Notes under the pieces: model-generated
The model's database searches: none
What the model was told of the DNA's origin: nothing
The model's input: only the letters and a program-made list of their open reading frames with translations
Source: Prevotella sp.
GTDB taxonomy: Bacteria; Bacteroidota; Bacteroidia; Bacteroidales; Bacteroidaceae
Assembly: GCA_021204735.1 (NCBI GenBank)
Contig: JAJPYV010000261.1
Location: forward strand, 1-17,600
Reading direction: 5' to 3'
Length of the DNA: 17,600 nt
Shown: in pieces, positions 3,403 to 14,514 of the stretch
Layout of the letters: every line of letters begins with the position of its first letter
Numbering within the stretch: position 1 is the first letter of the stretch
Program-made: the position numbers and the translations under genes

Positions 3403-4170
3403 ATGGCAGAGCAGAAAGACAATAAGGGCAAGGTCGTCATAGAGTTGGATAATGTGCGCCGTGATTTCATCGTCGGTGACGAGACTGTCCATGCCTTACG
3501 TGGTGTATCGTTCAAGATACATGAAGGCGAGTTCGTTACCATAATGGGAAAATCAGGCTCTGGTAAGTCCACTTTGCTGAACCAGTTGGGTTGTCTTGAC
3601 ACACCAACGAGTGGTGAGTATTATCTTGACGGTTATTCCGTGCGCAAGATGAAAAAGTCGGACAGGGCTATCCTGCGCAACCGCAAAATCGGTTTCGTGT
3701 TCCAGAATTACAATCTTCTTGCCAAAACGACCAGTGTGGAGAACGTGGAACTGCCATTGATGTACAATTCAAGTGTCGGTGCAAAGGAACGCCGTGAGCG
3801 AGCCATAACTGCTTTGAAGGCAGTGGGTTTGGGCGATAGGCTCTACCATAAGTCCAACCAGATGTCCGGTGGTCAGATGCAGCGTGTGGCTATTGCCAGG
3901 GCATTGGTCAACAATCCAGCTGTAGTACTTGCGGATGAGGCAACGGGAAACCTTGATACCCGTACATCATTTGAGATACTCGTACTTTTCCAAAGACTAC
4001 ATGCCGAAGGCAGGACAATAATTTTCGTTACACACAATCCTGATATTGCTCTGTATTCCAGCCGTAACATCGTGTTGCGTGACGGTTCAATCAGGGATGA
4101 TACCTACAACAATAATATTCTTTCGGCAGAGAAGGCACTTTCAGAGCTGCCGCCAGCAGAAGACGAGTGA
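3403..4170 (+). CDS. MacB/LolD-type ABC transporter ATP-binding protein
   Basis: This cytosolic ATPase (255 residues) powers the adjacent permease. All ABC motifs are present: Walker A GKSGSGKST (49-57), Q-loop Gln101, signature MSGGQ (154-158, with Met in place of the usual Leu), Walker B VVLADE with catalytic Glu179, D-loop around 182-185 and switch His211. I chose the ATG at 3403 because it gives a normal N-terminus and follows the adaptor stop by one base; the open frame reaches back to 3292, but that part overlaps the adaptor. The protein belongs to the family that also includes LolD and FtsE. In E. coli MacB this domain is fused to the permease; here it is a separate gene, as is common in Bacteroidota. 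A 20-residue acidic C-terminal tail ends in PPAEDE. Confidence 0.93.
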   Translation: MAEQKDNKGKVVIELDNVRRDFIVGDETVHALRGVSFKIHEGEFVTIMGKSGSGKSTLLNQLGCLDTPTSGEYYLDGYSVRKMKKSDRAILRNRKIGFVFQNYNLLAKTTSVENVELPLMYNSSVGAKERRERAITALKAVGLGDRLYHKSNQMSGGQMQRVAIARALVNNPAVVLADEATGNLDTRTSFEILVLFQRLHAEGRTIIFVTHNPDIALYSSRNIVLRDGSIRDDTYNNNILSAEKALSELPPAEDE

Positions 4171-4173
4171 TGA

Positions 4174-4219
4174 GAATTAAGAATTAAGAATTAAGAATTA
4201 AGAATTAAGAATTAAGAAT
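4174..4219 (+). repeat. Tandem heptamer array (GAATTAA)6 plus partial unit
   Basis: Six perfect GAATTAA units run from 4174 to 4215, followed by GAAT (4216-4219). The array begins three bases after the ATPase stop codon and lies inside the operon, between the ATPase and permease genes. Written in another register the unit is ATTAAGA, which fits the consensus RTTAARA shared with the other heptamer arrays of this window. AATTAAGAATG at its right end recurs near 7426. Confidence 0.95.
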
Positions 4220-4334
4220 GCCAATTTAATGGTAATGAAAGATATGATTAAGTCTGCTTAAAGTCTGCTGAACGTGAGAAATTTCACGCTGTGGTGTAAC
4301 TTTTAACTGTCCTCAATAAATTGGGACCCTACAT
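4220..4334. other. Non-coding part of the ATPase-permease spacer
   Basis: No gene is supported here. The stretch holds a direct repeat AAGTCTGCT (4250-4258 and 4261-4269), a 16-bp near-palindrome (4273-4288, one G-T pair) that could form a small hairpin, and one isolated heptamer TTTTAAC (4301-4307). No match to the TAnnTTTG promoter box was seen, so the permease may depend on read-through from upstream or on the leader element at 4335-4379. Confidence 0.6.
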
Positions 4335-4379
4335 AACTTTTAACTATTAACTTTTAATTTGCGGAGCGAAGCGAAGCAC
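4335..4379 (+). repeat. Heptamer leader element upstream of the permease gene
   Basis: Three in-register heptamers, TTTTAAC (4338-4344), TATTAAC (4345-4351) and TTTTAAT (4352-4358), are followed by TTGC (4359-4362). A purine-rich spacer with AGCGA repeats comes next, then AGCAC (4375-4379). The ATG follows after one base. The same order, (TTTTAAY)n-TTGC-spacer-AGCAC-start, occurs before gph and tgt on the other strand. This copy has a 12-nt spacer between TTGC and AGCAC; the other two have 2 nt. Confidence 0.85.
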
Positions 4380-4380
4380 A

Positions 4381-5619
4381 ATGAGTATAGTAAATCTTTT
4401 TAAAATAGCAGTGCGAGCGATAGCAGCCAACAAGTTGCGTTCGTTCCTCACGATGCTTGGTATAATAATTGGTGTGGCATCAGTTATTACGATGTTGGCA
4501 ATCGGTCAGGGGAGTAAGCAGAGCATAAGGCAGCAGATTTCCGAGATGGGTTCCAACATGATAATGATAATGCCAGGTCAGGATATGCGTGGTGGTGTCC
4601 GTCAGGATGCGTCATCTATGGAAACGCTGAAACTTGTTGATTACGAAGCACTGAAAGACCAATGTAAATATATTACTGCAATCAGTCCTGTTGTAAACAG
4701 TTCAGGACAGTTTATCTACGGTAACAACAATACCCCGTCAACTATCTATGGTGTTAACGAGGATTACTTAAAAATCCGAATGTTGGAGGTTGAGGACGGC
4801 GAGATGTTCAATGAAGAGGATATCAAGGCGAGTGCAAAGGTGTGTATCGTAGGAAAGACGGTAGTTGACAACCTATTTCCTGACGGCTCAGACCCTGTTG
4901 GCAAGGTGATAAGGTTCAACACGATACCGTTTCGTATCACAGGAGTGTTGAAGAGCAAGGGATACAACTCAATGGGACAGGACCAGGATGACATCGTATT
5001 GGCACCTTATTCAGCCGTGATGAAGCGTATCCTCGCCATAACATACGTGCAGAGTATCTCATGCTCCGCACTGACAGAAGACCTTACAGATACCGCTGTT
5101 GACGAGATTACTGAGATATTGCGTAGCCAACACAAGCTCAAGGATGCGACAGATGAGGATGACGGTGATGAGGATGATTTCAACATACGTTCACAGGAGG
5201 AACTTGCCACGATGCTCAATTCCACTACCGACCTTATGACCATCCTTTTGGCATGTATTGCAGGAATTTCTTTGGTTGTCGGTGGTATCGGAATTATGAA
5301 CATCATGTATGTCAGCGTTACAGAACGAACACGTGAGATAGGTTTGCGTATGAGTGTAGGTGCAAGAGGAATAGACATCCTCAGTCAATTCCTTATCGAG
5401 TCGATTTTGCTTAGTGTTACAGGTGGTATAATTGGAGTATTTCTCGGGTTTGGTGCCACATACGCAGTGAATATATTTGCCAAATGGCCAGTGTTGATAC
5501 AGCCTTGGAGTGTACTACTCAGTTTCTTTGTATGTACGGCAACAGGAGTATTCTTCGGTTGGTATCCAGCAAAGAAAGCAGCACAACTTGACCCAATTGA
5601 GGCAATAAGATACGAATGA
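4381..5619 (+). CDS. MacB-type ABC transporter permease
   Basis: This 412-residue inner-membrane protein has the four-helix MacB/LolC topology. Helix 1 lies near residues 19-42 (in LRSFLTMLGIIIGVASVITML). A large periplasmic domain of about 240 residues follows, then three C-terminal helices (about 285-310, 338-362 and 377-396). Family markers are the KLRSFLTMLGIIIGVASV start, the TERTREIGLRMSVGA segment after helix 2 that contacts the ATPase, and the PAKKAAQLDPIEAIRYE ending. Mechanotransmission pumps of this type push periplasmic substrate through the adaptor and TolC rather than carrying it across the inner membrane. A strongly acidic stretch (residues 255-268) sits in the periplasmic domain. 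The sensor kinase gene begins 21 bases downstream. Confidence 0.92.
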   Translation: MSIVNLFKIAVRAIAANKLRSFLTMLGIIIGVASVITMLAIGQGSKQSIRQQISEMGSNMIMIMPGQDMRGGVRQDASSMETLKLVDYEALKDQCKYITAISPVVNSSGQFIYGNNNTPSTIYGVNEDYLKIRMLEVEDGEMFNEEDIKASAKVCIVGKTVVDNLFPDGSDPVGKVIRFNTIPFRITGVLKSKGYNSMGQDQDDIVLAPYSAVMKRILAITYVQSISCSALTEDLTDTAVDEITEILRSQHKLKDATDEDDGDEDDFNIRSQEELATMLNSTTDLMTILLACIAGISLVVGGIGIMNIMYVSVTERTREIGLRMSVGARGIDILSQFLIESILLSVTGGIIGVFLGFGATYAVNIFAKWPVLIQPWSVLLSFFVCTATGVFFGWYPAKKAAQLDPIEAIRYE

Positions 5620-5640
5620 TATTAACATGCTTAGAAAATT

Positions 5641-6729
5641 ATGAGTAGTAAGAGAAGAATATATCAGATATTGTTTCATGTGGTGTGCTGGATGTTGGTG
5701 GCATTTGCGCCTATAATGGCATTGCCTCAACATTCCAATCAGGACGCAGTGACATATCTGCTGCACCTATGCTTTCCACTGCTCATGTGTATTATATTTT
5801 ACATGAATTATCTGTGGCTCGTGCCACGATATTTCGTCAATAACAGATATAATATCTTTATCTGTGTCAATATAATCACAGTAATTATTTTCACCATAAT
5901 AATGCAAGAGTTGATGGATGTGATGTTCTTACGGGAAGAAATGTTGGATCCGATGCGTCCTCCTCACATTCATCATGTTGATGGTATTTTCTCGAAAATA
6001 TCGAGAGTGTCCAATATTATAGGCAGGCATGTATTTCCTCTATTTCTCTCCGCCATAGTAGCCGTGTTGCTGCGCCTTGCGCAAAGGTGGCAAATGGCAG
6101 AGAATGGAAGAAAGGAAATGGAGATGCAGAAGACCGAAGCAGAATTAAAGAATTTGCGTAACCAGATTAACCCTCATTTTCTTTTGAATACCCTTAACAA
6201 CATATATGCGCTCATATCCTTCAACCAGGAGAAGGCACAGAAGGCAGTTCTTTCACTTAGCGCACTATTGCGACAGATGCTTTATGAAAACAAAAAGGCA
6301 ATCAGTTTGCAAGAAGAGACCGAATTTTTAAGCAATTATGTTGATTTAATGCGTATTAGGGTAAGTAAGAATGTGAAGGTTGATGTCAATTTTTCATTGC
6401 CTACTCAAAAAGAAGTTTATATCGCACCATTCATATTCATATCACTCGTGGAGAATGCATTTAAGCATGGCGTAAGCAACTCCCAACCGTGTTTCATATC
6501 CATTGATATTAGTTCTGACGGGGAGAAGGTAGTGTGTGTGATTAAAAACAGCAACTTTCCGAAAAACAATTCAGATCAAAGTGGTCATGGTATTGGTCTT
6601 GAGCAAGTGGCAAAACGCTTGGATGCGTCATATAAGGACAAATACGAGTGGAGTAGGGGTGTTGATGAAAACAATGTGTATATATCTAAAATAATATTAT
6701 ATGATACTCAACTGTGCAATAGTCGATGA
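5641..6729 (+). CDS. LytS/YehU-family sensor histidine kinase
   Basis: This 362-residue membrane kinase has about four predicted transmembrane segments in its first half (roughly 10-27, 39-61, 72-92 and 129-147). A coiled-coil linker (about 150-173) leads to the His_kinase domain with QINPHFLLNTLNNIYAL; the phospho-acceptor is His179. The ATPase part has the N-box LVENAFKHG (269-277) and the G-box GHGIGL (315-320). No separate sensory domain is visible, so the stimulus is probably sensed within or near the membrane. It lies in the efflux operon and its last 29 bases overlap the response-regulator gene, so the two are very likely a cognate pair, perhaps translationally coupled. Confidence 0.93.
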   Translation: MSSKRRIYQILFHVVCWMLVAFAPIMALPQHSNQDAVTYLLHLCFPLLMCIIFYMNYLWLVPRYFVNNRYNIFICVNIITVIIFTIIMQELMDVMFLREEMLDPMRPPHIHHVDGIFSKISRVSNIIGRHVFPLFLSAIVAVLLRLAQRWQMAENGRKEMEMQKTEAELKNLRNQINPHFLLNTLNNIYALISFNQEKAQKAVLSLSALLRQMLYENKKAISLQEETEFLSNYVDLMRIRVSKNVKVDVNFSLPTQKEVYIAPFIFISLVENAFKHGVSNSQPCFISIDISSDGEKVVCVIKNSNFPKNNSDQSGHGIGLEQVAKRLDASYKDKYEWSRGVDENNVYISKIILYDTQLCNSR

Positions 6730-7414
6730 TGAGCCATTAGCTGCCGAATTGTTGGCAAGTTATGCTCGGAAAACGCCGGAATTGAATCTTATCGGTACTT
6801 TTGAGAGTGCTGTAACTGCGATGAAAGTCATTAGAGAAGAAACTGTTGACTTATTGTTCCTTGACATTCAGATGCCGGAACTTAGCGGACTTGAATTTGC
6901 GAATCTTTTACCAGAGAGGACAAAAATAGTATTTACAACAGCATTTGACCGCTATGCCATAGAAGGTTATAAAGTTAATGCTATCGACTATCTTCTCAAG
7001 CCGATAAGTTATGATAAATTTCTCTTTGCTGTCAATAAGGCTGTGGAATGGTTCAAGGTAGTTGACAAGCAGCAACTACTCTCGAAAGATAAGTTCATTT
7101 ACGTGAAGAGCGAGTACAAACTGATTAAGATAAAGTTTGATGAAATTCTATATATTGAAGGACTGAAGGATTACATTAAGGTTTATGTATCAGGAGGAAG
7201 GAAACCAATAATGTCTTTGATGAACATGAAGAAGTTGGAGGATTTCCTGCCACAGCCGCAGTTTTTGAGGGTACATCGCTCATTCATAGTCAATATGGCA
7301 AAAATAGAGATGATTGACCGTGGGCGTATCGTTGTTGACAATGTATTTATCCCAGTATCAGAAAGCTACAAGGAGAAAGTGCAAAATTATATCGACAATC
7401 ATACTTTGCAGTAG
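6701..7414 (+). CDS. LytTR-family response regulator
   Basis: This 237-residue regulator has an N-terminal receiver domain with acidic residues Asp9, Asp10 and Glu11, the phospho-acceptor Asp55 in LFLDIQMPE, the Thr79/Thr80 switch and Lys100. A C-terminal LytTR DNA-binding domain (about 132-234) follows, with the family hallmarks FIYVKSEYKLIKIKFDEILYIEG and FLRVHRSFIVN. The kinase at its 5' end, sharing 29 bp, is the expected phosphodonor. LytTR proteins bind direct repeats upstream of their targets. The likely target here is the efflux operon promoter, although I found no convincing pair of LytTR sites there. The ATG at 6701 gives a normal receiver start. Confidence 0.93.
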   Translation: MILNCAIVDDEPLAAELLASYARKTPELNLIGTFESAVTAMKVIREETVDLLFLDIQMPELSGLEFANLLPERTKIVFTTAFDRYAIEGYKVNAIDYLLKPISYDKFLFAVNKAVEWFKVVDKQQLLSKDKFIYVKSEYKLIKIKFDEILYIEGLKDYIKVYVSGGRKPIMSLMNMKKLEDFLPQPQFLRVHRSFIVNMAKIEMIDRGRIVVDNVFIPVSESYKEKVQNYIDNHTLQ

Positions 7415-7555
7415 TGCGAAGAAAATTAAGAATGTTTCGATTAAGCGAACACAGAGCCAAACGAAATTTGAGCTATGTTGAGCGAAAGTAACATCACGCC
7501 AAAGGCGTAATTAAAAATGCAATTTTGTTTGAAGGCTTTTATGCCTGCGATGTAT
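7415..7555. other. Convergent intergenic spacer with repeat-like sequence
   Basis: No gene is supported between the convergent regulator and HAD genes. Directly after the regulator stop come single heptamers of the RTTAARA type (ATTAAGA, 7425-7431, and ATTAAAA, 7510-7516). AGCGAA occurs at 7444 and 7481. A small perfect hairpin, ACGCC-AAA-GGCGT, lies at 7496-7508. Its layout resembles a dispersed intergenic repeat, but only one copy is in the window. Confidence 0.45.
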
Positions 7556-8191
7556 TTAGAAATCAAGGAGCTCTTTTGGGGATGAGATTAGGGTTGTTGC
7601 TCCGTGACTGAGGAGGAAGTTTTTATCTCTGAAACCCCATAGTACACTGATACAAGGGATGCCACTGTTTTTAGCAGTTACTATGTCGACATCACTGTCA
7701 CCAATATAAACCGTACTTTCCTTGTCAGCACCAAGACGGGTCATTGCCTCAATAACGGTATCAGGTGCAGGTTTTCTTTTAATTCGGTCACTTTCACCTA
7801 TTGCCACACTGATATAATCGTTGAAAAAATGACGGCACAGCCGTTCAGTGGCTTCATGGCGCTTGTTACTGACAATCGCCATTTTTTTACCCTTGTTTTT
7901 CAATGCGCTCAACATCTCCATAATGCCATCGTAAGGTTTTGTGGCATCCAAACTATGTATCAGATAATGCGCCATGAACGCCTTATGCACATCATCAAAG
8001 AGAGGATTATCAAGACCGTTAGGAATGGCAAGTTCAATTAGTTTTTTAATGCCGTTTCCAACCATTTGTTTGACATCTTCCTCAGTATGTTCAGGCATGT
8101 TGAAGGCACGCAGTGCGTGGTTCACGCTTGCGGATAGGTCAGTAAGCGTGTTCAATAATGTACCGTCGAGATCGAAAATAAAATGCTTCAC
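7556..8191 (-). CDS. HAD-family hydrolase, phosphoglycolate-phosphatase-like
   Basis: This soluble haloacid-dehalogenase phosphatase has 211 residues from a GTG start at 8191. Motif I FDLDGT has the nucleophile Asp7 and the acid/base Asp9; motif II is Ser108-Asn109; motif III is Lys140 in KRKPAPD; motif IV is GDSDVD (164-169). The helical cap inserted after motif I resembles Gph/PgmB-type enzymes. Candidate substrates are small sugar or glycolate phosphates, which the sequence cannot decide. The GTG start puts KHFIFDLDGTLL at the N-terminus, as in relatives; an in-frame TTG at 8203 inside the repeat element would add four residues. No ATG is available near the expected start. It is the last gene of the minus-strand cluster. 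Confidence 0.88.
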   Translation of the reverse strand: MKHFIFDLDGTLLNTLTDLSASVNHALRAFNMPEHTEEDVKQMVGNGIKKLIELAIPNGLDNPLFDDVHKAFMAHYLIHSLDATKPYDGIMEMLSALKNKGKKMAIVSNKRHEATERLCRHFFNDYISVAIGESDRIKRKPAPDTVIEAMTRLGADKESTVYIGDSDVDIVTAKNSGIPCISVLWGFRDKNFLLSHGATTLISSPKELLDF

Positions 8192-8192
8192 A

Positions 8193-8229
8193 GTGCTATG
8201 CAAATTAAAAATTAAAAGTTAAAAATTCA
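8193..8229 (-). repeat. Heptamer leader element upstream of the gph-like gene
   Basis: Read in gene orientation there is a degenerate TGAAT unit, then TTTTAAC (8224-8218), TTTTAAT (8217-8211) and TTTTAAT (8210-8204), then TTGCATAGCAC (8203-8193). One further base precedes the GTG start. The plus-strand form GTGCTATGCAA-(RTTAAAA)3-RTTCA recurs at 11986-12029 with four units. It occupies much of the 79-bp gap to the helicase gene. Confidence 0.9.
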
Positions 8230-8270
8230 TTGTGGCGATATGCATATCCTCTTGGTATTTACTTGCGTTC

Positions 8271-9611
8271 TCACTTGCGATTATGTTTGTCTCCATTTAT
8301 GACATTTTTGTTGCCGTTTCCACCCTTATTGGCAATTTGCGAATGTGGAGATTTATGTTTCGTATGTTGGACTTCTTTGTTGTTCCCTTTGCTATTGCCT
8401 TTACTCTTACCATGCCTTTTTCCTTTTCCACGGAAACCTTTCTTTGGCTTGGGCATTGGTATGTATTCTGGAGGTGTGCCGAGGCCGTCTGGCAGAGGTA
8501 CTTTTTCAACTTCATAACCAAGGAACTTCTCGATGCGCATGAAATCTTCAATTTCCTTGCCCCGAATGAGAGTAATCGCAATTCCATCATTGTCTGCCCG
8601 TGCAGTCCTTCCAATGCGGTGAATATAGTCCTCGCAGTCGTGAGGAACATCATAATTGATAACCATGGAAATATCGTCAATATCAATGCCACGTGCCACA
8701 ATGTCTGTTGCAATAAGCACATCCACCTGTCCGCTCTTAAACTTGTACATAATCTCATCACGCTGACTTTGCTGTAAATCAGAGTGCATCTCACCGCAGT
8801 TTATTTTCCTTGACAGTAGGGATCGGGTTATATCCTTTACCTTAATTTTGGAACAAGAAAACAAGAGGACACGTTTTTGACCGTATTTCTTGAAGATATC
8901 CTTCAATATACCCGTTTTTTGGTTCTCATGACAAACGTATGCCAACTGCTTGATTTTGTCAGCAGGTTTGTTGATTGAAAGTTTTACTATTATTGGCTCT
9001 TTGAGGATTGTTTTAGCAAGTTCCTCTATCTTATCAGGCATTGTAGCAGAGAACATAACAGTCTGGCAAGTCTTAGGCAACAATTTGGTGATAGTAAGAA
9101 TATCATCATAGAAGCCCATGTCGAGCATACGGTCAGCCTCATCGAGAACGAAGAACGATACACGACTGAAATCAACATTCCCCATTGTTATGTGACTAAT
9201 CAGTCGACCAGGAGTAGCGATAATCACGTCAGCTCCCATCTTCATACCCTTGCTCTCCTGGTCATAACGAGAGCCATCGTTACCGCCATAAACAGCCACA
9301 CTGTTCACGGTTGGCATATAATAAGAGAATCCCTGCATAGCCTGGTCAATCTGTTGTGCAAGTTCCCTCGTTGGACTCATTATAACACAATTTATTGAAT
9401 CATCGGGGAAACTCTCCTCATCCAACCTGCTAAGAATCGGCAACAGATAAGCAGCAGTCTTGCCGGTACCAGTCTGAGCTATACCAAGAACATCCTTGCC
9501 GTTCAATATTTCAGGAATGCACTTTTCCTGTATAGGAGTACACTCGTTCCAACCCATATCCTCTATGGCATCGAGAGCGTTATCACTTAAATCTAAATCA
9601 AAAAAATCCAT
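8271..9611 (-). CDS. DEAD-box ATP-dependent RNA helicase
   Basis: This 446-residue protein has all helicase motifs in order: Q motif with TPIQ (25-28), motif I AQTGTGKT (45-52), Ia PTREL (80-84), Ib TPGR (133-136), II DEAD (157-160), III SAT (188-190), V ATDIVARGID (301-310) and VI HRIGRTAR (331-338). The tail after about residue 385 is basic and rich in Gly, Lys, Asn and His, as in RhlE/CsdA-like helicases, and probably binds RNA. The likely role is unwinding structured RNA in ribosome assembly or mRNA decay. Its ATG lies one base after the permease stop codon, so the two genes are co-transcribed. Confidence 0.95.
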   Translation of the reverse strand: MDFFDLDLSDNALDAIEDMGWNECTPIQEKCIPEILNGKDVLGIAQTGTGKTAAYLLPILSRLDEESFPDDSINCVIMSPTRELAQQIDQAMQGFSYYMPTVNSVAVYGGNDGSRYDQESKGMKMGADVIIATPGRLISHITMGNVDFSRVSFFVLDEADRMLDMGFYDDILTITKLLPKTCQTVMFSATMPDKIEELAKTILKEPIIVKLSINKPADKIKQLAYVCHENQKTGILKDIFKKYGQKRVLLFSCSKIKVKDITRSLLSRKINCGEMHSDLQQSQRDEIMYKFKSGQVDVLIATDIVARGIDIDDISMVINYDVPHDCEDYIHRIGRTARADNDGIAITLIRGKEIEDFMRIEKFLGYEVEKVPLPDGLGTPPEYIPMPKPKKGFRGKGKRHGKSKGNSKGNNKEVQHTKHKSPHSQIANKGGNGNKNVINGDKHNRK

Positions 9612-9612
9612 A

Positions 9613-10845
9613 TTAATTAGGAGCTTTGCGGTAGCAGAAGTATGCCACTACAGAGAAAATAATATTAGGTATCCAAGCAGCCAATATAGGAGGCATATTA
9701 GCATTGATTGCGAATGTGGCAGAAACAGTTTGCAACATGATATATGCAAAACTCAACGCAAGTCCGATACCGAGATACAAGCCCATTCCGCCTTTTCGTT
9801 TGCGAGATGACAGAGCAAGACCGATAGTAGTGAGGATGAATGAAGCAAACGACATAGCGATACGCTTATGAAATTCAACCTTATATTGAACCACATTACC
9901 TGAACCACGGTCAATCTGTTTGCTGATGTATTCCCGTAGTTGCGGACTTGTGAATGTCTCCTGTTGACCCTTAGAGAACACGAGGTCGGTAGGTTCCATC
10001 ATAATCAACGTATCACGGGAAGACATACCACTTGTGATAGTCTCACGCAGACCTTTGAGTTCACGGATGCGCCAGTTACGCACTTTCCAATGATATTTTG
10101 AATCCGCTATGGTGTCATATTGCACTTCCGCAGCAGTCAGGTGACTCACCAATTTCTTGTTCTCAAATTTGTCAAGGCAAAAGCCATATCCCTTTTTAAG
10201 ATTATCGTCGTAAAGTTGCATATAAGCAATTACGCCCTGACCAACCTGCAACTGCACGTTTTCTGCCGAAGTATTCGTTTTTTTGTTTTTGTACATCGTC
10301 TCGAAATTCTGTCTTATTATCGTGCCTTTTGGTATGACGTATGCCCCCAGACAGAAAGTCAGGATTGAAATAATAGCTGCTGAAATCATGTAAGGGCGCA
10401 TAAGACGCTTGAAACTAATGCCAGCAGCCAACATACAAATTATCTCAGAGTTGCCGGCAAGTTTTGACGTGAAGAAAATCACGGCAATGAACACGAACAG
10501 CGGACTGAACAAGTTGGCAAAATAAGGTATGAAGTTCAGATAATAGTCAAACACTATCGCTTTTAGCGGCGCATGATACTGGGCGAACTTAGCAAGATTC
10601 TCGTTGACATCAAAGACAATAGAAATCGAGATGATGAGGATGATAGAATAAAAATACGTACCGATGAATTTACGTATGATATACCAGTCCAAAATCTTCA
10701 GATACCGAAACGGGTTGAGTATTTTCAGCCAACTCAACTTACGTTTTAGCCATGCAAAAGACACGAAAAGCCAGTTGAAGCGCGCTCTCAGCCATCGTGA
10801 GAGTTTCAGAAGTTTTCTGTATTTCCTGATCTTACTTCTTTTCAT
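9613..10845 (-). CDS. LptF/LptG-family lipopolysaccharide export permease with N-terminal extension
   Basis: This 410-residue inner-membrane protein belongs to the YjgP/YjgQ family. These permeases pair with the LptB ATPase to extract LPS and pass it to LptC/LptA. The canonical start, LKILDWYIIRKFIGTYFYSII, begins only at residue 49. It is followed by three helices, a periplasmic beta-jellyroll region of about 150 residues and three C-terminal helices. The first 48 residues are extra: 16 are Lys or Arg, and WL recurs at 18, 25, 32 and 39, exactly seven residues apart. No Met lies between residue 1 and the canonical start, and the open frame stays in phase, so I keep the ATG at 10845. tgt ends 12 nt upstream. 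LptF versus LptG cannot be told from this window. Confidence 0.88.
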   Translation of the reverse strand: MKRSKIRKYRKLLKLSRWLRARFNWLFVSFAWLKRKLSWLKILNPFRYLKILDWYIIRKFIGTYFYSIILIISISIVFDVNENLAKFAQYHAPLKAIVFDYYLNFIPYFANLFSPLFVFIAVIFFTSKLAGNSEIICMLAAGISFKRLMRPYMISAAIISILTFCLGAYVIPKGTIIRQNFETMYKNKKTNTSAENVQLQVGQGVIAYMQLYDDNLKKGYGFCLDKFENKKLVSHLTAAEVQYDTIADSKYHWKVRNWRIRELKGLRETITSGMSSRDTLIMMEPTDLVFSKGQQETFTSPQLREYISKQIDRGSGNVVQYKVEFHKRIAMSFASFILTTIGLALSSRKRKGGMGLYLGIGLALSFAYIMLQTVSATFAINANMPPILAAWIPNIIFSVVAYFCYRKAPN

Positions 10846-10857
10846 GTCATTAATTAC

Positions 10858-11985
10858 TTAAATGCGTTTTCCCAACTGTTCTATTACAGATGCCTTCCAT
10901 TTCACGAAATCACCATTCTCGATATGCTGGCGAGCATCCGTTACAAGACGCAAGTAAAAAGCCAAATTATGGATACTTCCAATCTGCAAAGCCAAAATCT
11001 CCTGCGATTTGAACAGATGATGCAGGTAAGCCTTTGAATGAATTCTATCAAGTTCGCAGCCATCAGGATCAATAGGAGAGAAGTCATTCTCCCATTTCTT
11101 GTTACGCATGTTCAATGTGCCGTAGTATGTGAACAGCATGGCATTCCTACCGTTGCGTGTCGGCATTACGCAGTCGAACATATCCACGCCACGTTCAATG
11201 CCTTCAAGTATGTTTTGTGGCGTACCGACCCCCATCAGATAGCGTGGCTTGTCCTTTGGCAAGATAGCATTTACAACTTCAATCATTTCATACATCACCT
11301 CCGTAGGCTCACCCACAGCAAGTCCTCCTATAGCGTTACCGTCAGCATTTTTGTCAGCGACAAACTTAGCAGCCTCGCTTCGCAAGTCTTTATAAGTACA
11401 CCCCTGGACAATAGGGAACAATGACTGAGAATATCCATATAACGGTTCTGTTTCATTGAAACGTTTTATGCACCTGTCGAGCCAGCGTTGAGTAAGCATC
11501 AAACTGTTCTTGGCATATTCGTAATCACTTTTACCAGGAGGACACTCATCTAAAGCCATCATTATATCAGCACCGATAGCCCTTTCAGTATCCATCACGT
11601 TCTCAGGCGTGAAGAAATGCTTGGAGCCATCAATATGCGAGCGGAACTCACATCCTTCCTCTTTCAATTTGCGAATACCCGTTAGAGAAAACACCTGAAA
11701 GCCACCGCTATCGGTGAGAATAGGTTTATCCCAAGTATTAAACTTGTGCAAACCGCCAGCCTCTTTCAAAATATCCAATCCTGGACGAAGGTAAAGATGA
11801 TATGTATTACCCAAGATGATTTGAGCCTTTATCATGTCCCTTAACTCACTGAAATGAACAGCCTTTACACTGCCACACGTACCGACAGGCATGAAAATTG
11901 GAGTTTTGATCACCCCATGAGCCGTTGTAATCAGTCCTGTACGAGCGTCAGAACCACAATCTGAATGTTGAAGTTCAAAAGTCAA
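10858..11985 (-). CDS. tgt: tRNA-guanine transglycosylase (queuosine pathway)
   Basis: This 375-residue TIM-barrel enzyme swaps guanine 34 of GUN-anticodon tRNAs for preQ1. Seen here are TDSGGFQ with Asp92, the substrate-recognition loop GGLAVGE, and MFDCVMPTRNGR with the nucleophile Asp271. The usual C-x-C-x2-C zinc site does not appear. Counting from Asp271, the first two Cys positions hold Gly309 and Glu311 and the third holds a non-Cys residue, with only Cys310 in the stretch; His339 of the IHN motif is kept. Translation starts with TTG at 11985, giving the standard TFELQ N-terminus, and the start abuts a heptamer leader element. It is followed by the LptF/G permease, a neighbour pair common in Bacteroidota. 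Confidence 0.95.
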   Translation of the reverse strand: MTFELQHSDCGSDARTGLITTAHGVIKTPIFMPVGTCGSVKAVHFSELRDMIKAQIILGNTYHLYLRPGLDILKEAGGLHKFNTWDKPILTDSGGFQVFSLTGIRKLKEEGCEFRSHIDGSKHFFTPENVMDTERAIGADIMMALDECPPGKSDYEYAKNSLMLTQRWLDRCIKRFNETEPLYGYSQSLFPIVQGCTYKDLRSEAAKFVADKNADGNAIGGLAVGEPTEVMYEMIEVVNAILPKDKPRYLMGVGTPQNILEGIERGVDMFDCVMPTRNGRNAMLFTYYGTLNMRNKKWENDFSPIDPDGCELDRIHSKAYLHHLFKSQEILALQIGSIHNLAFYLRLVTDARQHIENGDFVKWKASVIEQLGKRI

Positions 11986-12029
11986 GTGCTATGCAAGTTA
12001 AAAGTTAAAAGTTAAAAGTTAAAAGTTCA
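11986..12029 (-). repeat. Heptamer leader element upstream of tgt
   Basis: On the plus strand, GTGCTATGCAA (11986-11996) is followed by four perfect GTTAAAA units (11997-12024) and a degenerate GTTCA. In gene orientation it reads TGAAC-(TTTTAAC)4-TTGCATAGCAC and ends exactly against the TTG start codon of tgt. It lies in the 66-bp gap between lon and tgt. Confidence 0.95.
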
Positions 12030-12051
12030 ATTTTGCTTGAGCATTTACTTG

Positions 12052-14514
12052 TTACTCTTCTTGCTTCTTGTTGTCTTCCTCTATGTCGAAAGTAACGGGG
12101 TTGTTGACTTTTACGTCAGTCAGGGCGAAATCCCAAACCTCCTGGACATTTTCAACATAATGGAAGTTTACACCTTTGAGGTACTCCTCAGAAATCTCGT
12201 CAATATCCTTCTTATTTTCCTTGCACATCACGATTTCCGTTATACCCGCACGTTTAGCAGCAAGAATCTTTTCCTTGATACCACCAACAGGCAGCACTTT
12301 TCCGCGTAGAGTTATCTCCCCTGTCATGGCAGTGTTTTTGCGGACTTTCCGTTGGGTGAGAGCAGAGGCAATAGATGTAGCAATAGTGATACCAGCCGAA
12401 GGTCCATCTTTTGGAGTTGCGCCCTCAGGAACATGAATGTGAATATTCCAATGTTCGAAAATGCGATAGTCGATACCGAGAACATCAGCATGAGCCTTCA
12501 CATATTCCAATGCAAGGACAGCCGACTCTTTCATAACATCGCCGAGATTACCTGTAAGAGTGAGTTTTGAGCCTTTACCCTTGCTCAAACTTGTCTCGAT
12601 AAATAATATCTCACCGCCGACACTTGTCCAAGCAAGTCCTGTGACCACGCCGGCATAGTCATTACCCTGATATACATCACGATAGAAAGGCGGCTTACCC
12701 AGAAGAGAATAGATTTCTTGTGGAGTAATCTTGTTGTAAGGCAACTCCCCATCCTTAGCCTTTGCGTAAGCCAATTTACGGAACGTCTTGTTAATCTGCT
12801 TTTCCAATTGCCTTACACCACTTTCACGAGTATATTGCTCAATAATTTTCTCAATTGCCGCCTTGTTGAATGTAAGTTTTTTCTCGCTGTCCAATCCACA
12901 ATTCTGCTTCTCTTTTGGAATCAGATGCCTTTTAGCAATTTCAACCTTTTCCTCAGTGATATAACCACTCACCTCTATTATTTCCATGCGGTCGAGCAAA
13001 GCACGAGGAATGGTGTTAAGATCATTGGCAGTAGCGATGAATAAGACCTTCGACAAATCATAGTCAACATCCAAATAATTGTCGTGGAAGGCATGATTTT
13101 GTTCTGGGTCGAGAACCTCAAGCAAAGCAGACGCTGGGTCACCATTGAATGTAGATTGCGTAACCTTGTCTATCTCATCAAGGATAAACACAGGGTTAGA
13201 AGAACCAGCCCTTTGGATGCTCTTTATGATACGTCCGGGCATAGCACCTATATAAGTTCTGCGATGCCCCCTGATTTCCGCCTCATCATGGAGACCGCCA
13301 AGAGAGATACGAGTATATTTTCTTTTCATCGCCTCAGCAATACTCTTACCAAGGCTTGTCTTGCCCACACCGGGAGGACCATAAAGGCAGATGATAGGCG
13401 ATTTCAGGTCATTTCTAAGGCTCAAAACAGCCATATATTCAAGTATGCGTTCCTTAACCTTTTTCATCCCATAATGGTCCTTGTCAAGGATTTTCTCGGC
13501 CCGTTTCAAGTTCAAGTCATCCTCTGTATAGCTTTCCCAAGGTAGATTGACCATAGTTTGGAGATACGTGAACTGCACGCTGAACTCAGGACTTTGAGGG
13601 TTGAGCATATCAAGTTTGTCGAGTTCCTTTTCGAACGTCTTAGCAATCTCCTCGGGCCACTGTTTTTCGGCAGCTTTTTCCTTAAGCTCTTTCTTTTCAG
13701 GGCTACTTTCGCCGTTGCCAAGTTCCTCCTTGATATTCTTAATCTGCTGTTGCAGGAAATACTCACGCTGCTGCTCATCGATATCCTCTCTTGTTTTAGT
13801 TCTGATATCATGCTTAATTTCAAGTAGTTGCGTCTCCCTATGCAGTATTCTCAACATCTTGAAAACCCTATCCTTGCGAGAGTTTTCACCAAGAAGTTTT
13901 ATTTTCTCCTCAATATCGAAAGGAAAGCTCGTGCAAATAAAGTTCAGCAATATAATAGGATTGCTGATGTTGCGGAGAGCAAACTGTGCCTCATCAGGAA
14001 TTTCATCGTTTTTCTTTACATATTCGATGGAATTGTTTTTCAAGTCCTCCACAGCAGCCGTAAATTCAGCGTCAACATTTTGATTGGCAGCTTCAGGAAT
14101 ATCCTCAACAACACCCATGTAAAATGGTTTTACTGCTGTTATCTCTTTGAGATGACAACGTCTCATGCCTTGCACGATAACCGTGAGATTACCATTTCCA
14201 GGCATTTCAAGAATGCGTATAATCTTGGCGTAAACGCCGTATTCATATAAGTCATTCTTTCCAGGATTATCCTGATTAGAATCCTTTTGGCATATAATGG
14301 CGAAAATTGCGTCTTGTTTGTCTTTCAGTTCATTGACAAGATTCAGACTTGAGTCTCTCCCAATAAGGATTGGCGAAACGACCCCGGGGAACAACACAAG
14401 GTTACGAGTTGCTAAAATGGGGAGTTCTCCAGCGAAATCCCCCTCAAAGAGCTTTGTAATGTCACCTTCATAGTCCGCAATCATTGAAAATGCGTTATTT
14501 ACATCTTTTCTCAT
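12052..14514 (-). CDS. lon: ATP-dependent protease Lon (LonA type)
   Basis: This 820-residue protein is a cytosolic AAA+ serine protease that degrades misfolded and regulatory proteins. The N-terminal substrate-binding domain begins with [19 protein letters not shown] (from about residue 31). A long coiled-coil region follows, rich in Glu, Lys and Gln (about 240-300). The AAA+ module has Walker A GPPGVGKT (379-386) and a Walker B FILDEIDK. The protease domain has PKDGPSAG with the catalytic Ser706, and the catalytic Lys749 in GGIKEK, spaced 43 residues apart as in E. coli Lon. The length is normal for LonA and all key residues are present. The C-terminus is an acidic/Lys tail (EEDNKKQEE). It has its own probable promoter and may read through into tgt. 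Confidence 0.97.

Follow-up and report, generated by a model that had tools for sequence, protein, structure and literature searches.

The heptamer-rich leaders that abut the start codons of three unrelated genes in this Prevotella contig are, at a probability we put near one half, copies of a dispersed, fast-turnover intergenic heptamer repeat that has a polarity, grows by slippage and stops at coding sequence. Since its arrays sit at gene edges at stops as readily as at starts and run mostly in one direction, the element looks like a polarised intergenic repeat and not a control switch for three particular genes. Its dispersal, its polarity, the equivalence of starts and stops, its presence or absence and its changes of unit between sister species were all observed, as were whole-unit changes of length at one site and in-place replacement by other heptamers.

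The window (the whole 17,600-nucleotide stretch of DNA analysed) contains four arrays, all with a period of 7 according to TRF:

4334..4379, plus strand: copy at the MacB/FtsX permease gene, a three-unit array that includes one TTAACTA unit, followed by TTGCGGAGCGAAGCGAAGCAC
8193..8229, minus strand: copy at the HAD/gph-like gene, made up of TGAATTT, a heptamer array (8202-8227) and TTGCATAGCAC (8193-8203)
11986..12051, minus strand: copy at tgt, made up of two 12-base CAAGYAA words (12028-12051), TGAACTT, an array (11995-12027) and TTGCATAGCAC (11986-11996)
4173..4219, minus strand: a fourth array, reading (AGAATTA)6.7 on the plus strand and immediately 3' of the ABC ATPase stop codon (4168-4170)

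An earlier note on this DNA had described a common leader at the first three genes, and re-examination of the window located all three copies as claimed. Pfam identifies a MacB_PCD/FtsX permease, a HAD_2 hydrolase, TGT and Lon; lon precedes tgt, and a DEAD-box helicase gene precedes the HAD gene. At the permease, the array (4334-4360) runs into TTGCGGAGCGAAGCGAAGCAC (4359-4379), one base separates this from the ATG at 4381, and the CAAGC left half is absent. At the HAD/gph-like gene, AGCAC is followed by one base and a GTG start, which we inferred from the HAD motif after it (the mechanical ORF starts at TTG 8203, inside the element). At tgt, AGCAC abuts the TTG start at 11985 with no base between, orthologs align from this TTG codon, and the copy takes up all the DNA that separates the tgt start from the lon stop (12052-12054). 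Over TTGCATAGCAC the copies at gph and tgt are identical, as had been reported, and each carries a TGAAY unit, which we place at the beginning of the array. The fourth array directs its pyrimidine strand at the ABC ATPase stop, with a 3' distance of 3.

The common pattern exceeds chance expectation: TTTTAAYN{0,20}TTGCN{2,12}AGCAC has 4 matches in the window where 0.01 would be expected (the permease accounts for two, which overlap), and none of 200 shuffles of the window attains 4. Together with the reversed control of the left half plus array (58 matches versus 0, below), these shuffles rule out chance low-complexity DNA, against which the earlier note had also argued. A known RNA family was dropped as a reading, as Rfam covariance models gave no match at the gathering threshold in the window.

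The wider element, which belongs to a small Prevotella lineage and outside the own genome was found almost only in two sister species, has the consensus CAAGCAA-N4-GAAYTY followed by (TTAAYTY)n and, frequently, TTGC. In the own genome (G000, an 81% complete MAG of 2.74 Mb in 438 contigs), the strong genome-wide signal comes from this left half plus array, searched as CAAGCN{1,14}GAAYTYTTAWYTY, with 58 matches and none in the reversed control. The exact AGCAC pattern, which the earlier note had proposed for a genome-wide search, gives a weak signal of 6 matches versus 2 in its reversed control. The spacer after CAAGC is 6 in 57 of the 58 copies, although the pattern permitted 1-14. GC comes next after the array in 26 of 92 own arrays; AGCAC, a minor variant, is found no more than 22 nt past the array end in 6 of the 92. 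Leftward of the element, CAAGCAA words often recur by eye every 12-13 bases, and further modules may stand to their left.

Across the trio (G000 and its sisters G083 and G166), in loci largely selected by heptamer patterns, 95 of the 105 perfect tandem runs with periods from 5 to 14 have a period of 7. The units TTAAYTY, TTATTTY, TTCATTY and TCAATTY have single Gs at most on either strand and so offer no G-tracts for a quadruplex, and the TAACTGA unit occurs neither among the 12 unit types of the trio nor among the 7 of three further genomes, G295, G252 and G251. A looser array pattern served only for locating places, its reversed control being poor (at least 59+74 matches versus 28+33) owing to the near symmetry of T-rich arrays.

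The left half plus array matched 7 of 150 genomes of the genus: the own genome (58), G083 (27) and five with 1 match each, which have different spacers and are taken as probable chance matches. A stricter pattern applied to one genome per species (84,980 species) returned 29 stretches, 28 of them from two Prevotella sp. MAGs, AH.B6_5 and BH.B10_3 (G166 and G167); G167 yields contig places identical to those of G083. The remaining stretch (L087, 2890-2919) is a single exact CAAGC plus array match in the cyanobacterium Sphaerospermopsis aphanizomenoides; this match may be fortuitous or may reflect a related heptamer repeat. The bare array (TTAACTY)3 has a broader, uneven distribution, occurring in 24 of 247 genomes of the order, most frequently in G295 (93), G252 (37), G251 (27) and the own genome (27), and it is absent from the other sampled genomes in the genera of G295 and G252. 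Its reversed control also matches several genomes, with G368 (42) and G314 (37) at the top, and these matches are (TCAATTY)n arrays. In the literature searched, whose coverage largely excluded subscription journals, we found no recognisable description of these repeats in Prevotella.

Polarity was measured by comparing both ends of each array with gene boundaries from a small codon-usage gene caller, with near defined as within 25 nt. The own sample comprised 92 arrays, each 17 nt or longer, from 61 stretches picked by a heptamer or CAAGC match; 64 were usable, and 28 were dropped because one side had no called gene or because they lay inside one. With retrained gene calls, the 3' end of the pyrimidine strand was near a boundary in 44 of the 64 and the 5' end in 9 (43 and 9 of 64 with earlier calls), where random placement within the same gaps predicts about 18.7 for each end. 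Among discordant arrays, 38 were near at the 3' end only and 3 at the 5' end only (p=1e-8). The permease array (4334-4360) stands outside these counts, its TTAACTA unit having been missed by the regular expression, and the gph copy was scored near via the TTG inside the element.

This polarity is the same at both kinds of gene edge. Arrays facing a stop were near it in 27 of 33 cases and arrays facing a start in 17 of 31, so the preference for start codons that the earlier note had proposed did not hold, and a start-codon-specific leader is ruled out as a general statement. The alternative that note had set against its own proposal, copies scattered without preference, is borne out by half: orientation and position are strongly non-random, but start codons are not favoured. 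The distances carry known biases on each side. In 15 of the 27 near-stop cases the stop lies inside the array itself (the other 12 genes have their own stop 0-25 nt off), so contact at stops is partly built in because the array sequence carries stop codons; small start distances are favoured because gene starts were set mechanically as the first start after the array, although those of hisS, galE, nadB, tgt and the permease looked right against orthologs. A homology-based version, using 39 ortholog tags from 41 arrays chosen with a 3' distance of at most 60 and a 5' distance of at most 260, gave 25 of 31 (3') versus 5 of 31 (5'), an asymmetry biased by that choice, so that it demonstrates no more than agreement between ORF edges and homology edges.

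Stop codons within arrays also bear on the idea of a gene-edge insulator, in which three or more units supply stops in all frames of both strands and end readthrough. Three TTAACTT units do close all six frames, and genes end inside the array in the 15 cases just given. However, the purine strand contains stops in 12 of 12 unit types where shuffled units give 11.4 of 12, and 8 of 12 unit types have no stop on the pyrimidine strand. Stops in this small sample are thus not beyond composition, selection for all-frame stop codons is rejected, and we regard insulation as very improbable.

The same asymmetry recurs in some other genomes. In the sister loci (28 of the 29 stretches, the cyanobacterial one excluded; 14 of 32 arrays dropped), the 3' end was near in 12 of 18 arrays and the 5' end in 4 of 18, with discordant arrays 8 to 0 (p=0.008). 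G295 belongs to another family and its arrays are bare, without the CAAGCAA core, yet they share the polarity (8 versus 1 of 12; discordant 7 to 0, p=0.016). It was not clear in G252 (7 versus 4 of 11; discordant 4 to 1, p=0.38) or G251 (2 versus 0 of 3, p=0.5); G295, G252 and G251 were represented by 20 stretches, the first places among the matches listed. For the (TCAATTY)n arrays, polarity was predicted in advance and found in G368 (8 versus 1 of 34 usable; discordant 7 to 0, p=0.016), where 26 of the 34 had no 3' gene boundary inside 25 nt; G314 gave 3 versus 0 of 5 usable (p=0.25). One of 35 arrays was dropped in G368 and 8 of 13 in G314. Taken alone, G252, G251 and G314 have too few arrays to establish polarity.

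Turnover between sister species was assessed by searching the right-gene tags of 39 own arrays in G083 and G166, which gave 47 comparisons: 34 usable, 11 without synteny and 2 with large insertions. A heptamer array was present in 16 of the 34 comparable gaps (11 of 17 in G083, 5 of 17 in G166) and absent from 18. At the lon-tgt junction, the element is present in G000 and G166 and missing in G083, where lon reads past the tgt start; as G083 is closer to G000 than G166 is by DNA identity, loss in G083 and repeated gain are both possible. The gph site has a copy in G000, a CAAGC-type copy in G083 and other DNA in G166. The permease site has an array in all three, the G166 copy being CAAGC-type. 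The array after the ABC ATPase stop (4173) is 35 bp, or five units (5x7), shorter in G083. Unit replacement is seen in the hisS gap, with (TTCATTT)n in G166 versus (TTAACTT)n in G000, and the L133 gap has TCAATTG/TCAATTC units in G083. In both sisters the L129 gap is an array-free 27-28 nt.

A broader view of one site came from tgt, for which 135 genomes gave a match and the upstream region was read in 30 loci. An array within 200 nt upstream was found at the own locus only and in 0 of 29 other Prevotella loci; in 27 of these 29, the tgt start either overlaps the upstream stop or follows it by no more than 27 nt. One tgt locus (L196) has a loose CAAGC match and no array. In the lon-tgt gap of another Prevotella (L208), degenerate AAATTGA-type heptamers, a different unit, stand directly after the lon stop.

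These comparisons weigh on the proposal, made in the earlier note and by MacGregor 2015 for TAACTGA repeats, of a functional 5' leader, here an unstructured U-rich module that would aid translation start without Shine-Dalgarno pairing. The 17 of 31 start-facing arrays within 25 nt of a start are consistent with it, as is the array kept at the permease site in all three sisters. According to PMC6847099, Bacteroidetes initiation relies on low structure and upstream adenines, and translation without Shine-Dalgarno makes a leader role conceivable, not required. Against it, arrays meet stops at least as often, all 11 usable arrays of G252 face a stop, position -3 of the tgt copy is C and not A, the array is missing from the 18 sister gaps and the 29 tgt loci described above, and orthologs in the two sister species often have either no array or a different heptamer at the corresponding site. 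We consider such a leader unlikely. The functional or mobile element of the earlier note, be it a leader, a promoter or an inserter, is upheld in part: the module is repeated, favours one orientation and touches gene edges, while specificity to start codons is not supported.

The constant CAAGCAA core argues for the copying of a defined unit, which slippage alone leaves unexplained. It is possible, though we favour it less than the slippage reading, that the unit from the CAAGCAA words to TTGC is a MITE- or REP-like mobile element without autonomy, which a recombinase acting in trans carries into short intergenic gaps, with the heptamers changing later. The 58 dispersed copies of a constant core, their confinement to a few related species, the empty lon-tgt junction in G083 and the short array-free gaps in several orthologs (such as L129) all suit this explanation. 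Conversely, no terminal inverted repeat is apparent by eye in the printed copies, no target duplication is readable between the diverged sister flanks, right ends are variable, and the core-less bare arrays of G295 share the polarity. A search for Y1_Tnp (PF01797), the RAYT-type domain, found 0 matches in the own MAG (81% complete) and matches in 5 of 14 control genomes, and on this basis a RAYT-driven REP was rejected.

Other intergenic modules and structures occur near these arrays. At 4309-4332 (minus strand) of the window, GTAGGGTCCCAATTTATTGAGGAC represents a second dispersed intergenic module with 9 core matches in 275 kb of own sequence; it often lies beside CGTTCTGAAAGAACG (7 matches in the same 275 kb), and the 4309-4332 copy is missing from the corresponding G083 gap. 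A third dispersed module of about 100 bases lies at approximately 7421-7528, with GAGCTATGTTGAGCG at 7470 (6 matches in those 275 kb) and similar stretches in G083 and G166 at 74-83% identity; at L125 this module stands at the gene end in G083 versus a heptamer array in G000. By eye, L101, L118, L121, L133, L156 and their orthologs have short-loop hairpins between the array and the gene end, often across the stop codon, and at L133 and L156 sister species keep the hairpin with different stem sequences. A 22-bp inverted repeat (765-813), its arms 91% complementary and 5 nt apart, lies between genes one and two of the window.

In the slippage reading, many intergenic gaps hold a seven-base tandem array, which in this lineage frequently has a CAAGCAA module on its left and varied right ends, alters by whole units and is replaced by other heptamers at the same site. 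With the 3' end of the pyrimidine strand preferentially against a coding block, the array is purine-rich when read outward from the gene edge, whether start or stop. We infer that slippage lengthens the arrays and that they advance one way only, until selection to preserve coding sequence halts them; they would then touch start codons merely as a side effect, and a dedicated leader function would be absent.

More tentatively, heptamer arrays in Bacteroidales, Xanthomonas and Nostoc may follow a single sequence-independent law, with the purine strand outward from the coding edge at starts and stops alike, which would point to a directional DNA process (for example polar slippage, or growth by template switching, that coding blocks bring to a halt). 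If this law is true, a general process would build and rewrite intergenic DNA, and quadruplexes and leaders would be side effects. The polarity rule known for G-rich heptamers now extends to AT-rich heptamers without G-tracts in more than one Bacteroidales genome, and the quadruplex therefore cannot be the general cause of polarity. These results yield a testable statement on how bacterial intergenic DNA grows and is rewritten, and they warn annotators that a motif recurring next to start codons may be a repeat and not a regulatory leader.

Short dispersed intergenic modules that combine into mosaics are familiar from the bacterial interspersed mosaic, REP and MITE families. Unlike these, the Prevotella element has a tandem heptamer as its core, and Y1_Tnp was not found in the MAG. 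MacGregor 2015 (PMC4679880) describes TAACTGA direct repeats in Beggiatoaceae, Cyanobacteria and five Bacteroidetes, with 147 of 170 sets directed at start codons and 12 at stop codons, and suggests a translational role. As in Prevotella, those heptamers stand in one orientation against start codons (TAACTGA often replaces the ribosome-binding site), and relatives have shorter, repeat-free gaps; one set in Bacteroidetes, which lies in reverse immediately behind a stop codon, is like the Prevotella arrays. The Prevotella unit differs in not being TAACTGA and in meeting stops at least as frequently as starts.

The closest comparison is with the G-rich heptamers GGGAATC (Xanthomonas) and GGGGAYT (Nostoc) of Rehm et al. 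2015 (PMC4692102), whose main subject is quadruplexes. In that paper the repeats lie almost exclusively closer to the next 5' ORF, whatever its orientation, are under-represented between divergent ORFs and have loci reported as more stable. Both systems thus have a seven-base intergenic unit with the purine strand outward from starts and stops alike. Rarity between divergent ORFs may hold in the own genome (a raw count of 3 of 64 arrays) and is not clear in the sister loci (4 of 18) or G295 (3 of 12), with G368 at 4 of 34. Compared with PMC4692102, the Prevotella units are AT-rich and without G-tracts, the arrays are absent or swapped in many sister gaps, and a CAAGCAA module is attached in the Prevotella lineage. 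The Prevotella arrays are a real, polarised and quickly changing heptamer repeat of a known class, from which they differ in sequence.
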